From Corynebacterium sp. zg-331 (GTDB lineage: Bacteria; Actinomycetota; Actinomycetes; Mycobacteriales; Mycobacteriaceae): a stretch of DNA of 64,000 nucleotides. Each line of letters starts with the position of its first letter. Position 1 is the stretch's first letter. Where the stretch lies: the NCBI RefSeq assembly GCF_014267345.1, contig NZ_JACMYD010000001.1, positions 62,001 through 126,000 on the forward strand. Reading direction: 5' to 3'. Below the pieces are notes generated by a model. That model ran no database searches. It was not told where the DNA came from and saw only the letters and a program-made list of their open reading frames with translations. Below, piece by piece: positions 2,158 through 53,205 of this stretch. A program made the position numbers and the translations under genes.

Positions 2158-3321
2158 ATGACGGAATCCGTTTATATCGTCGAGTCCGCGCGATCCCCCA
2201 TCGGAACCTTCCTGGGATCCCTATCCTCCTACACCCCCATCGACCTGGGCACTCACGTCGCCAAGGCGGTGATCGAGCGTTCCGGTGCGCCCGCAGAGGC
2301 CTTCGACGCCTCCGTCTTTGCCAACGTGGTCACCTCCCGCCCGCGCGACGTCTACACCCCCCGCGCGGTGGCCCTCCAGGCGGGCCTGCCGCAGTCCAGC
2401 CACGCCTACGCCGTCAATCGCCTCTGCGGGTCCGGCGTCCAGGCCATCGTCAGCGCGGCCCAACAGATCATTACCGGAGATAGCAACCTCGCGCTCGTCG
2501 GCGGCACCGAGGTCATGAGCGCCGCGCCCTACTCCATCCCCGGCATGCGCAAGGGGATCAAGATGGGCGACGGCACCCTGGATGACTGGCTCACCGGTGC
2601 GCTTACCGACCCGATGGGGAACGGGATCATGGGCATCACGGCGGAGAACATCGCGGAGAGGTTCGGCATCAGCCGCGAGCGCCAGGACGAATACGCGCTG
2701 GAATCCCAGCGCCGCGCCCGTGCCGCCATCGAGGAGGGCCGCTTTGTCGATCAGATCGTGCCCGTGCCGGTGCGCGGCGGTGAGTTCACCACTGACGAGC
2801 ACCCCCGTGAGACCTCCCTGGAGAAACTGGCCGGGCTGCGACCCACCTTCCGCAAGGACGGCGCGGTCACCGCCGGCAACTCCTCCGGCATTAACGACGC
2901 CGCCGCCGTCACCGTCATGGCCAGCCAGGCCGCCGTGGACGAGCACGGCCTGAACCCCCAGGCCCGCGTGGTGAGCTGGGGGATCGCCGGCTGCGATCCC
3001 AAGTACATGGGCCTGGGTCCGGTGGGTGCGGTGCCCAAGGCGTTGGCCAAGGCCGGCCTGAACCTGGGGGACATCGACCTCATCGAATCGAACGAGGCCT
3101 TCGCCGCCCAGTGTCTGGCAGTGTCCGACCAGCTGGGCTTTGACCCCGCCAAGACCAACGTGGATGGCGGCGCCATCGCCCTGGGCCACCCCATCGGGGC
3201 CACCGGCGTCATCCTGACCACCAAGCTCATCTCCCGGCTGCGCGCCACCGGCGGCCGCTACGGCCTAGTGACGCTGTGCATCGGCGGCGGCCAGGGTATC
3301 GCTCTCATCCTGGAGGTTTAA
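2158..3321 (+). CDS. fadA: acetyl-CoA C-acyltransferase (3-ketoacyl-CoA thiolase)
   Basis: This thiolase performs the last beta-oxidation step, cleaving 3-ketoacyl-CoA with CoA. The 387-residue protein has the nucleophile Cys90 in NRLCGSG, the active-site histidine in GGAIALGHPIGATG and the second cysteine in LCIGGGQG near the C-terminus. The ATG at 2158 is chosen because AAGGAG lies 9 nt upstream and the thiolase fold begins at once. The fused dehydrogenase/hydratase gene follows after 4 nt, forming a two-gene operon. A biosynthetic thiolase role is possible, but the neighbours favour fatty-acid degradation. Confidence 0.92.
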   Translation: MTESVYIVESARSPIGTFLGSLSSYTPIDLGTHVAKAVIERSGAPAEAFDASVFANVVTSRPRDVYTPRAVALQAGLPQSSHAYAVNRLCGSGVQAIVSAAQQIITGDSNLALVGGTEVMSAAPYSIPGMRKGIKMGDGTLDDWLTGALTDPMGNGIMGITAENIAERFGISRERQDEYALESQRRARAAIEEGRFVDQIVPVPVRGGEFTTDEHPRETSLEKLAGLRPTFRKDGAVTAGNSSGINDAAAVTVMASQAAVDEHGLNPQARVVSWGIAGCDPKYMGLGPVGAVPKALAKAGLNLGDIDLIESNEAFAAQCLAVSDQLGFDPAKTNVDGGAIALGHPIGATGVILTTKLISRLRATGGRYGLVTLCIGGGQGIALILEV

Positions 3322-49820: not shown

Positions 49821-51158
49821 ATGATGATCACCGGACTAGCCCTCGGCGCCGCCCTGGGCGCGGTCATGCAGCGCGGACGCTTCTGCGTGACCGGAATGCT
49901 GCGCGATATTTTCCTGCAACGCTCGTGGCGCGGCTTTACCGGCCTGCTCATCGTGATCTCCGTGCACGCGGTGGGCCTGGCGGCACTGACCAGCGCGGGG
50001 ATCATCGCCCCGGAGTATGACGATCTCGCGCCGGTGGCCGTGATCGTGGGCGGGTTGATCTTTGGCCTGGGCATCGTGTTGGCGGGTGGCTGCGCCTCCG
50101 GCACCTGGTACCGCTCGGCGGAGGGCCTGGTCGGATCGTGGATCGCCCTGGCCACTTATGCTCTTTCCTCCGCCGCGATGAAAAGCGGGGTGCTGCGCGG
50201 CCTCAACGAGGCCCTGCACACCCACACCGTGCCCCTGCGCAGCCTCCCGCAGAGCCTCGGGGTCTCACCCTGGTGGTTCGCCCTGGCGCTCGGCGGGCTC
50301 ACCACCGTGCTGGCGTGCCGCTACCTTGCCGCCGAGAAGTCGGTGGCCACGCTGCACCGCCGGGCCTGGCGGCGCCCGCTGCACCTGTACGCCGCCGCCG
50401 TGATCGTCGGCCTGCTCGGTGTGCTGGCCTGGCCGCTCTCCGCCGCCACCGGCCGCAACGACGGCCTGGGGATCACCACCCCCTCCTCCAACGTGCTGCG
50501 CTACCTCGTCACCGGCGACGCCGAGCGCGTGGACTGGGGCGTGATGCTCGTGCTCGGGCTGTTCCTCGGCGCCTTCGCGGCGGCCAAGGCCACCGGGGAG
50601 TTCCGCGTGCCCGACGCCACCGCCGCGCGCTGCGCCGTGATCGGCGGGCTGGCCATGGGGGTGGGGGCCTCGCTCGCCGGCGGCTGCACCGTGGGCAACG
50701 GCATGGTACAAACCTCGCTGTTTACCTACCAGGGCTGGTTGGCATTGCTCTTTATCGCCTTGGGGGTGGGGCTGGGCGCGCGCCTGTGGCTGCGTCCCCG
50801 GGGTGCGGTGACCTCTGTGGAACCGGGAAAAGTCGGCTCGATGAGCGCCCTGCCGAGCGTGCACGGGCTGGTGAGCGTGGGGGCGTCATCGAGCGCCAGC
50901 GAACGCGGTGCGGTGGCCACGCTCGCGCCGGGGCGCTACCGCCTGGACACCTTCGGTGCGGTGTGCCCCTTCCCCCTGATCGAGGCCAAGGAGGCCATGA
51001 ATCGACTCAACGCGGGCGAGGAGCTGGTGATCGACTTCGACTGCACTCAGGCCACAGACTCCCTGCCGCGCTGGGCGGCCGAGGAGGGACACGAGGTAGT
51101 GGACTTCTCCGAGCGCGGCGCGGCCGGGTGGAGCATCACCATCCGCAAGGGCGCGTAG
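49821..51158 (+). CDS. YeeE/YedE thiosulfate transporter fused to TusA
   Basis: The 445-residue protein joins a TsuA-type transporter to a sulfur-carrier domain. The membrane part has the three conserved cysteine loops: QRGRFCVTGMLRDI, GGCASGTWYRSAEG and GGCTVGNGMVQTSL. From about residue 370 it is TusA/SirA-like, with the active cysteine in FGAVCPFPLIEAKEAM and DFDCTQATDSLPRWAAEEGH. Thiosulfate would enter and its sulfur could pass straight to the carrier cysteine. In E. coli-type systems the two are separate genes (yeeE, yeeD). GGAAAGG lies 10 nt before the ATG. Confidence 0.9.
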   Translation: MMITGLALGAALGAVMQRGRFCVTGMLRDIFLQRSWRGFTGLLIVISVHAVGLAALTSAGIIAPEYDDLAPVAVIVGGLIFGLGIVLAGGCASGTWYRSAEGLVGSWIALATYALSSAAMKSGVLRGLNEALHTHTVPLRSLPQSLGVSPWWFALALGGLTTVLACRYLAAEKSVATLHRRAWRRPLHLYAAAVIVGLLGVLAWPLSAATGRNDGLGITTPSSNVLRYLVTGDAERVDWGVMLVLGLFLGAFAAAKATGEFRVPDATAARCAVIGGLAMGVGASLAGGCTVGNGMVQTSLFTYQGWLALLFIALGVGLGARLWLRPRGAVTSVEPGKVGSMSALPSVHGLVSVGASSSASERGAVATLAPGRYRLDTFGAVCPFPLIEAKEAMNRLNAGEELVIDFDCTQATDSLPRWAAEEGHEVVDFSERGAAGWSITIRKGA

Positions 51159-51809: not shown

Positions 51810-51895
51810 GGCCATATGACTCAACGGAAACCGGCCATATCACTTAATAAAACCGAGCCATATGATGCAATAAAAACCGGCCATATCACTCAGTG
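51810..51895. repeat. four-copy 23-bp-period repeat upstream of the DUF4143 ATPase
   Basis: GCCATAT occurs at 51811, 51834, 51857 and 51880, exactly 23 bp apart. Each is preceded by GG (AG in the third) and followed alternately by GA and CA; the next bases are CT(C/T)AA-like and the first three units end AAACC or AAAACC. The last copy overlaps the -35 region of the likely ATPase promoter (TATCCT at 51899-51904). It looks like a helically phased operator array. Confidence 0.85.
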
Positions 51896-51942
51896 TGCTA
51901 TCCTCAGCTGGGAAAACGAGGTAGGGAAGGGGTAGTACGAGG

Positions 51943-53205
51943 GTGGCCAACTATCTGCCGAGAATCGCCGATGCGAGGCTGGCGCGCGCCCTAGTGGAGA
52001 GCGGGGCGGTACAGATCAAGGGGCCCAAGTGGTGTGGCAAGACGGCCACGGCCCTGCAGCAGGCGGGCAGCGTGATGTATCTGCAAGACCCTGACTATTC
52101 GGCCTCGTATCTAGCCCTGGCGGAGGCGAAGCCCTCCAAGCTTTTGGAGGGGGAGGTGCCCAGGCTCATTGACGAGTGGCAGATGGCGCCTCGGCTATGG
52201 GACGCCGTTCGCTTTGCCGTGGACCGCAGGGGCGAGCCCGGGCAGTTCATTCTCACCGGATCGAGCACGCCGACCGTCACCCCGGCGCACTCTGGGGTCG
52301 GGCGGATCACGAGCCTGGTGATGCGCCCCATGACTCTGTACGAGTCGCGGGAATCCAGCGGGGATGTCTCGCTCGGGGATCTCTTCTCGAACCCCGGCGA
52401 GAACATCGGGTCCATTTCCACCCTGGACGTGGAGGACCTGGCGCATGTCCTGTGCCGGGGCGGGTGGCCCGCGGGGGTTGCCTCGGCGCAGGATCGAGGG
52501 GCGCGGCTCGCCCATGCGTACGTGGACGGGCTCATCGAGTCGGATATTTCCCGCGTCGATGGGGTCAATCGCAACGCCACGCGGATGCGCGCCCTCATGC
52601 GGTCGTACGCGCGCCACGTATCCACGCAGGCGTCGCAGGCGACTATAGCGGCGGACCTCGCCGCCAACGATGAGGCGATGTCGCCCAACACCGTCAGCGA
52701 TTACCTCGATGCCCTGGCTCGCGCGTACATCACGGACGAGGTAGAGGCGTGGAACCCCGCGCTGCGCTCCAAGACGGTGGTGCGCACCAGCCCCACCAGG
52801 CACTTTGTGGACCCCTCGGTGGGAACCGCCCTGATGCGCGCCAACCCTGCGGACCTGTTGCGAGACATGGAGGTCTACGGGCTCCTCTTCGAGTCCCTGT
52901 GTGTGCGCGACCTGCGCGTGTACGCCGAGGCGATCGACGGAACGCTCCTGCACTATCGGGACAAGACCGGCCTGGAGGCGGACGCGGTGCTCGTGCTCGC
53001 GGACGGCCGCTGGGCGCCGATAGAGATCAAGCTTGGGGAACGTCAGGTGGACGAGGCCGCGGCGAACCTGAACAAACTGGCCAACAGGGTAGATAGCGCG
53101 CGCATGGGTGCGCCCTCCTTCCTCGCCGTGGTCACCGGCGGTCGGGCCGCTTATCGACGCCCCGACGGGGTGTACGTGATCCCCCTGGCGTGCCTGCGGC
53201 CGTAG
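51943..53205 (+). CDS. DUF4143 AAA ATPase (AAA_14 with nuclease-like C-terminus)
   Basis: The 420-residue protein has an AAA_14 N-terminal domain with Walker A GPKWCGKTATALQQAG, Walker B VPRLIDEWQ and GQFILTGSST. The C-terminal DUF4143 domain carries a PD-(D/E)XK-like strand set (EADAVLVLADGRWAPIEIKL). These ATPases are frequent, horizontally spread and of unknown role. Single-gene distribution and phage-defence or addiction roles have been suggested, without firm proof known to me. GTG at 51943 opens the conserved YLPRIADARL. It ends 1 bp from the ribokinase stop, convergent. Confidence 0.88.
   Translation: MANYLPRIADARLARALVESGAVQIKGPKWCGKTATALQQAGSVMYLQDPDYSASYLALAEAKPSKLLEGEVPRLIDEWQMAPRLWDAVRFAVDRRGEPGQFILTGSSTPTVTPAHSGVGRITSLVMRPMTLYESRESSGDVSLGDLFSNPGENIGSISTLDVEDLAHVLCRGGWPAGVASAQDRGARLAHAYVDGLIESDISRVDGVNRNATRMRALMRSYARHVSTQASQATIAADLAANDEAMSPNTVSDYLDALARAYITDEVEAWNPALRSKTVVRTSPTRHFVDPSVGTALMRANPADLLRDMEVYGLLFESLCVRDLRVYAEAIDGTLLHYRDKTGLEADAVLVLADGRWAPIEIKLGERQVDEAAANLNKLANRVDSARMGAPSFLAVVTGGRAAYRRPDGVYVIPLACLRP

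Follow-up and report, generated by a model that had tools for sequence, protein, structure and literature searches.

A 23-bp repeat array before a Corynebacterium DUF4143 ATPase-nuclease gene as the probable private binding array of the encoded protein

What do four evenly spaced direct repeats do in front of a gene for a DUF4143 ATPase? The question is raised by a locus of Corynebacterium sp. zg-331 that lies in a stretch of 64,000 nucleotides (contig NZ_JACMYD010000001.1, positions 62,001 to 126,000), which was analysed as a whole and is called the window here. An earlier note on this DNA had reported four copies of GCCATAT at an exact 23-base pair (bp) period and had proposed an operator array whose spacing seems to be under selection. 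The copies, their period and their starts (Table 1) are confirmed in the letters, and profile matches confirm the DUF4143 ATPase gene behind them. From sequence comparison, we consider it probable (about 0.75) that the repeats form the private cognate binding array of the ATPase-nuclease encoded behind them, which would repress itself. Most likely, this protein binds and controls its own promoter.

Within the window the array is distinctive. The pattern GCCATATSA has four matches in 64 kilobases, all of them in the array (shuffled sequence gives 0.70 on average, and four were reached in 0 of 100 shuffles). Periodicity was scored as the best 46-base self-match at periods of 15 to 35, with a score of at least 29 as the threshold. 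When the whole window was divided into 246 tiles of 260 bp, the tile carrying the array was the sole one with a best period of 23, and it had the highest score (33 of 46, the runner-up reaching 29). In the 2.16-megabase genome, the 22-base unit with up to three mismatches has three matches, all of which are copies of this array, and a spaced-pair pattern of the unit likewise matches at the window array only.

The same period recurs before related genes. Among 101 genomes of the same genus, 52 have a match, some of them weak. The best period is 23 in 70 of 82 same-genus upstream regions (the window included) and 22 in another six, and 71 of the 82 reach the threshold, compared with 0 of 1640 dinucleotide shuffles of these regions; other tiles at the same loci do so in 14 of 742 cases, none with a period of 23. 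The repeats are thus present upstream of close homologues, where their absence would have spoken against the earlier proposal. Nor is the box of the window widespread apart from an ATPase gene in the 101 genomes. With up to one mismatch allowed, this 15-mer is found repeatedly in just two genomes, G000 and G063, which both bear the gene, and a single time in seven further genomes. One of these seven is G064, which lacks the gene at a locus whose flanks are 84-86% identical to those of G063 and which keeps two array copies beside a ribokinase gene (L274 / L283). We read this locus as a relic array after gene loss, not as a clean insertion site.

Beyond the genus, the best 80 relatives in a GTDB-based collection are 49-97% identical in protein sequence and belong to several bacterial phyla and to archaeal metagenome-assembled genomes (MAGs). 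The closest named relative among them, in a collection from which the closest records are possibly omitted, is Corynebacterium mastitidis (97% identity), whose array has five copies compared with four in the window. Enough upstream sequence was available for 78 of the 80, mostly from other taxa, and the period above threshold is 23 in 68 and 22 in three. In a merged set of 218 relatives from Actinomycetota, Bacteroidota, Bacillota, Spirochaetota, Pseudomonadota and archaeal MAGs, the above-threshold period is 23 in 160, 22 in nine and 24 in two, which supports the proposed operator array with spacing under selection; 2180 shuffles of these regions exceed the threshold six times at any period and once at 23. 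If only the position of the peak is considered, it falls at 23 in 190 of the 218 compared with 92 of the 2180 shuffles, and it does so in all nine copies on plasmid or virus-labelled contigs. In the collection viral_contigs, two peptide patterns recovered only seven relatives from 2.9 million contigs, and the subfamily therefore seems rare in viruses despite its wide spread. A search of the same collection for gene-less phage decoy arrays gave no match for two exact array patterns, a weak test that covers two specificities only.

The anatomy of the repeat unit was derived from 167 arrays scoring at least 28 at a period of 23, and hence chosen for self-similarity. Each was folded at this period and brought into register with the others by cyclic shift, with the proteins left unused. 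Conservation within arrays is 0.80-0.92 at columns 3-17, 0.77 at column 2, and 0.62-0.70 at columns 18-22 and 0-1. Judged by this profile, the 23-bp unit is a 15-bp box followed by an 8-bp spacer, and the box of the window is GCCATATSACTCAAT or near it. The drift between copies that the earlier note described therefore holds for the spacer, and the conserved part exceeds GCCATAT to span about 15 bp. Three copies are present in 74 arrays, four in 60, five in 15 and six in 11, and 163 of the 167 have at least three.

The box is private to each gene. Identity at columns 8-14 is 0.81-0.92 inside an array compared with 0.27-0.45 between arrays, and columns 9-14 combine nearly full conservation within arrays with values close to random between them (0.27-0.34). 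The commonest bases across arrays are the anchors C5, A6, A7 and A15 (0.66-0.85). A search upstream of homologues, as the earlier note advised, does find periodic repeats, but its suggested query CCATAT would miss most of them because the unit differs between genes, which have little more in common than the period and some anchor bases. Mean box similarity is 0.36 for 40 pairs of paralogues in the same genome and 0.39 for 2516 other pairs; arrays sharing a genome are thus no more alike than arrays from separate genomes, and this speaks against a common regulator acting in trans. The second DUF4143 gene of genome G000 (L002; contig C19, 11355-12616) is split over two reading frames, with matches to residues 4-105 and 96-420 that overlap out of frame, and is preceded by a 23-bp repeat of a different unit, AGAGGTAG, with a score of 28, just below the threshold.

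The protein encoded behind the window array passes the gathering scores of both DUF4143 (PF13635; E 2.2e-32, 112.4 bits, cut-off 28.1) and AAA_14 (PF13173; E 5.5e-12, 46.2 bits, cut-off 27), and the PADLOC model PDLC04790 (PDC-S01) matches it over residues 1-418 (E 1.8e-65). No NCBIfam model matched the ATPase, PHROGs gave weak matches only (best E 0.078; the second, a transcriptional regulator with E 0.16, spans residues 228-261), and a sequence search of the Protein Data Bank gave no convincing match (best E 0.034). An AlphaFold2 model (predicted local distance difference test 93.6, predicted template modelling score 0.92) contains an ATPase domain and a helical part, then a unit of three helices (residues 212-260) with strands after it, and from residue 309 a PD-(D/E)XK-like domain. 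We read the three-helix unit and its strands as a putative winged helix. For model residues 1-299 the best solved folds are 2qen (Z 14.2, root-mean-square deviation 5.1, 261 residues aligned) and 2fna (Z 12.5, deviation 5.1, 258 aligned), followed by Avs5, CED-4 and plant NLRs with Z of 9.0-11.2. These matches, with Z of 9-14, span about residues 1-300, for which a STAND-type layout, an NTPase with helical and winged-helix domains after it, is a possible reading; Foldseek also returns Orc1/Cdc6 on DNA. The active-site pattern E/D...D...E-x-K of PD-(D/E)XK nucleases is present. Residues K33, E78, D347, E361 and K363 are found in 167 of 167 relatives, and E317 and D77 in 166. Because the Walker and nuclease residues are kept to this extent, both the ATPase and the nuclease activity are probably retained. 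When open frames of at least 90 amino acids in flanks of up to 3 kilobases (many contigs being shorter) were clustered by blastp at 80 loci, the largest cluster of neighbours was present at eight, and we therefore treat the gene as standing alone.

The recognition helix (about residues 244-258) was named from the model as the expected site of a signal ahead of the covariation analysis. Across the 167 genes, array bases do change together with likely DNA-reading residues, the five top residue-column pairs being 248 with column 11, 249 with 13, 341 with 3, 279 with 4 and 342 with 2. The pairing is chemically sensible: Arg or Lys at 248 goes with G in 56 of 59 cases and Lys or Arg at 249 with G in 32 of 38, while 54 genes have Lys at 341, of which 49 have G at column 3 and 48 have C at column 4. 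Among 9660 pairs, 248 with column 11 ranks 1 in the genus set and 5 in the other-taxa set, and 342 with column 2 ranks 3 and 14. In a test of 83 disjoint sister pairs, corrected for identity and covering 7613 residue-column pairs, 249 with column 14 ranks 1, 341 with column 4 ranks 2, 249 with column 12 ranks 5, 248 with column 11 ranks 8, 249 with column 13 ranks 14, 341 with column 3 ranks 19 and 342 with column 2 ranks 56. The maximum correlation for the pre-named helix (r 0.525) was reached in 0 of 2000 permutations. In nine mobile or viral copies that were held out, Lys at 341 goes with C at column 4 in four of four cases and with G at column 3 in three of four. These data support binding of the array by the ATPase itself, and the signal at 341 and 342 suggests that the nuclease domain takes part in base-specific reading.

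Arrays are also phased with promoters. Strong sigma-70-like promoters were called in 89 of the 167 relatives compared with 49 in shuffled sequence. Of the 89, 19 have a -35 element that begins with column 1 of the last copy detected, and 18 have it one period further on, at an offset of 22-24. Counted from column 0 of the last copy, hexamers resembling TATAAT are most frequent at +24 (13, compared with 2 for the reversed hexamer), with a second peak at +45 (11 compared with 5). Taken together, the phasing and the hexamer peaks indicate that C5 and A6, which the boxes share, can also form the end of the -35 element, and the phasing favours auto-repression. The claim that the last copy in the window overlaps a -35 region is plausible, in that an extended -10 element, TGTGCTATCCT, adjoins the box of copy 4. 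Direct repeats overlapping a promoter are thus found in part of the relatives and, by eye only, in the window.

From these observations we infer repression of the gene's own promoter, together with physical binding by one protomer per repeat, a trigger, and a target for the nuclease. According to the proposed mechanism, the DUF4143 protein, which combines an ATPase, a winged helix and a PD-(D/E)XK nuclease domain, would read each 15-bp box through two elements: the start of the recognition helix (residues 248/249) would contact columns 11-14, and columns 2-4 would be contacted by residues 341/342 in a hairpin loop of the nuclease domain. Adjacent protomers would be fixed 23 bp apart, and at least three of them, aligned along the promoter, would shut out RNA polymerase and keep expression of the gene low. 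Were the state that the protein senses to change (ATP/ADP or, if the gene serves in defence, a phage product), the oligomer would be released or rearranged, which would both raise expression and free an intact nuclease.

Several results weigh against this interpretation and temper the probability we assign to it. No array above threshold precedes 47 of the 218 relatives, of which 30 still peak at 23. Of 29 DUF4143 loci sampled from the whole phylum with the Pfam profile, only 9 reached the threshold, and at various periods, so that cis repeats are not shown family-wide. At the window itself, a consensus scan of the upstream region for promoters and terminators found nothing, missing the -10 element seen by eye, and the automatic promoter call falls within the array, which is not sensible. 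More than half of the strong promoters (52 of 89) have another offset, and 12 of these share phase 16. The covariation is uneven as well. In the genus set, 249 with column 13 ranks 329 (2 in other taxa), 341 with column 3 ranks 2369 and 341 with column 4 ranks 9087 (1 in other taxa); the signals of 249 with column 13 and 341 with column 4 rest on the other-taxa part. Over all residues, 31 of 2000 permutations attained the top value of the sister-pair test, and other residues account for 14 of the 20 best residue-column pairs in that test. The correlation for the contact set, 0.27, is not decisive in view of random five-residue sets that reach up to 0.336 (mean 0.111). Contacts at 279, 278, 251 and 232, proposed from pooled covariation, were dropped after sister-pair ranks of 774, 2718, 1390 and 3795. 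Among the held-out copies, Lys at 248 goes with G in one of three cases and Arg at 341 with G at column 3 in none of three; these misses are in part due to doubtful register, and that of L321 looks wrong.

Four other explanations of the array were weighed. One holds that it is a DNA-templated platform for assembly or storage, on which the protein is parked as an inactive or primed oligomer, with transcriptional control secondary and the nuclease acting at the array or being released upon infection. This may apply, and we regard it as a tentative possibility. The hairpin of the nuclease domain seems to help read the box, which would place the catalytic domain on array DNA; the catalytic residues are conserved; at least three copies are present in 163 of 167 arrays; and the best folds after 2qen and 2fna are those of NLR, CED-4 and Avs5 ATPases, which are known to oligomerise. 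The promoter-phased arrays of many relatives are nevertheless explained more simply by auto-repression. The opposite sign of control, which would also count against self-repression, is that binding to the array lets the protein switch its promoter on, in the manner of the STAND regulators MalT or IniR. Apparent kinship of fold with STAND ATPases is in keeping with this, as is the position of all but the last copy upstream of the -35 element placed in the last copy in arrays of at least three. IniR is an activator with an ATPase domain predicted to be SSO1545-like, according to the accessible part of the source (PMC5760070). We consider activation unlikely, given that 19 of 89 strong promoters have their -35 element beginning with column 1 of the last copy, which is a repressor's position.

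It is very improbable that another regulator of the host binds the arrays and that the ATPase gene is merely its target. Nothing specific speaks for this view, and against it arrays are as dissimilar within a genome as between genomes, unit bases covary with residues of the ATPase, and plasmid and virus-labelled copies carry arrays too. An iteron-like replication element or a CRISPR-like array is, if anything, more improbable still: tandem direct repeats beside an ATPase gene whose fold also resembles Orc1/Cdc6 recall such elements, but several independent arrays occur per genome (replication context was not searched for). As to a CRISPR array, the 23-bp period is contiguous, with only a drifting 8-bp spacer and no unique spacers, and this candidate was rejected.

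A broader and more speculative proposal, which we hold with considerable reserve, is that DUF4143/PDC-S01 genes are exclusion-group elements, that is, mobile ATPase-nucleases that each carry their own address (the array) and a matching reader. According to this proposal, specificity would diversify since two elements that shared an address would mutually silence or attack one another, and the array would both mark the element as self and provide a platform for assembly, on which the docked nuclease domain would form part of the reading head. If true, it may concern one of the most abundant single-gene defence candidates of prokaryotes.

Table 1. Positions in the window of the array, the probable promoter element, the ATPase-nuclease gene and parts of its coding sequence.
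Feature	Position	Strand	Remarks
Array copy 1	51811..51833	+	15-bp box 51811-51825, then 8-bp spacer
Array copy 2	51834..51856	+	
Array copy 3	51857..51879	+	
Array copy 4	51880..51902	+	box 51880-51894; probable promoter replaces spacer
Probable extended -10 element TGTGCTATCCT	51894..51904	+	by eye; missed by consensus scan
AAA_14-DUF4143 ATPase / PD-(D/E)XK-type nuclease gene (PADLOC PDC-S01)	51943..53205	+	GTG start
Walker A, residues 27-34	52021..52044	+	G27, G32, K33 kept in 167/167 relatives
Putative winged-helix region, about residues 208-283	52564..52791	+	AlphaFold2 helices 212-224, 232-241, 248-260
Codons 248-249, predicted start of recognition helix	52684..52689	+	covary with unit columns 11 and 12-14
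PD-(D/E)XK-like nuclease domain, residues 309-420	52867..53202	+	E317, D347, E361, K363
Codons 341-342, predicted hairpin loop of nuclease domain	52963..52968	+	covary with unit columns 2-4

Other DUF4143 genes are preceded by repeats of other kinds. In a second subfamily (L287-L316), seeded with L100 for its visible repeats and counting the L100 gene again, the sole best period is 32 or 33 in 25 of 28 upstream regions, with a tie in one more; 14 regions exceed the threshold, all at 32-33, compared with 5 of 840 shuffles that exceed it. By eye, palindromes or long inverted repeats rather than direct repeats precede the DUF4143 genes of L109, L112, L094 and L103. Directly before the array of L013 lies a tRNA-Ala gene (2974-3047, minus strand), a possible integration point. 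In L027, about 1340-2640 bases past the DUF4143 start, five successive 260-bp tiles within a long open frame have a perfect 15-bp periodicity, which is probably that of a five-residue protein repeat. Elsewhere in the window, positions 49821-51158 hold a single open frame in which a sulphur transporter (TsuA/YeeE-like) is fused to a TusA domain.

The array has practical value. A cis array before most copies of the subfamily, together with a partly readable code, yields a predicted binding site for each protein; the array may also serve as a reporter for the activity of the protein and as a way to seek its trigger; and the 167 arrays with their readers, many of different specificity, form a natural set. 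The ATPase-nuclease gene is a candidate member of antiviral defence. PDC-S01 is described as a widespread phage-defence candidate in which an ATPase is fused to PD-(D/E)XK, and for most candidates of this kind experimental validation is still pending (PMC12988326, PMC13356809, accessible parts); across prokaryotes it is reported to rank fourth in frequency among defence systems (PMC12988326). The domain make-up given there is that of the window protein; in the accessible text PDC-S01 is a single-gene system and a cis array goes unmentioned. RNA of a Thermus DUF4143 gene was up 6.6-fold with plasmid DNA in an Argonaute-encoding strain, as stated in the accessible part of that report (PMC4406477). 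No description of such arrays was found in the literature that was partly accessible to the search, with bioRxiv and most subscription journals outside it. The logic of an operator array is familiar; we know of no earlier case in which an ATPase-nuclease reads an array private to its gene, in part with its nuclease domain.

The nearest regulatory analogue found is RptR, the repressor of a phage-defence island, which the accessible text describes as a separate repressor acting on 9-bp repeats with one 6-bp palindrome (PMC12255303). Here, by contrast, the putative effector itself should bind, and the units are 23 bp long and private to the gene. By fold, the best matches are the archaeal Walker-type ATPases PABY2304 (2qen) and SSO1545 (2fna), with the nuclease domain outside the alignment. 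We know of no binding site reported for either of them. The STAND proteins MalT, IniR, CED-4 and Avs5 seem alike in the fold of the ATPase and the domains that follow it, whereas the window protein has no sensor repeats and carries a PD-(D/E)XK domain that seemingly helps to read DNA. Plasmid iterons are tandem direct repeats that overlap the promoter of the gene for a DNA-binding protein. The arrays described here share their tandem direct repeats and differ in that several independent specificities occur in a genome and in that an ATPase-nuclease takes the place of a Rep protein.
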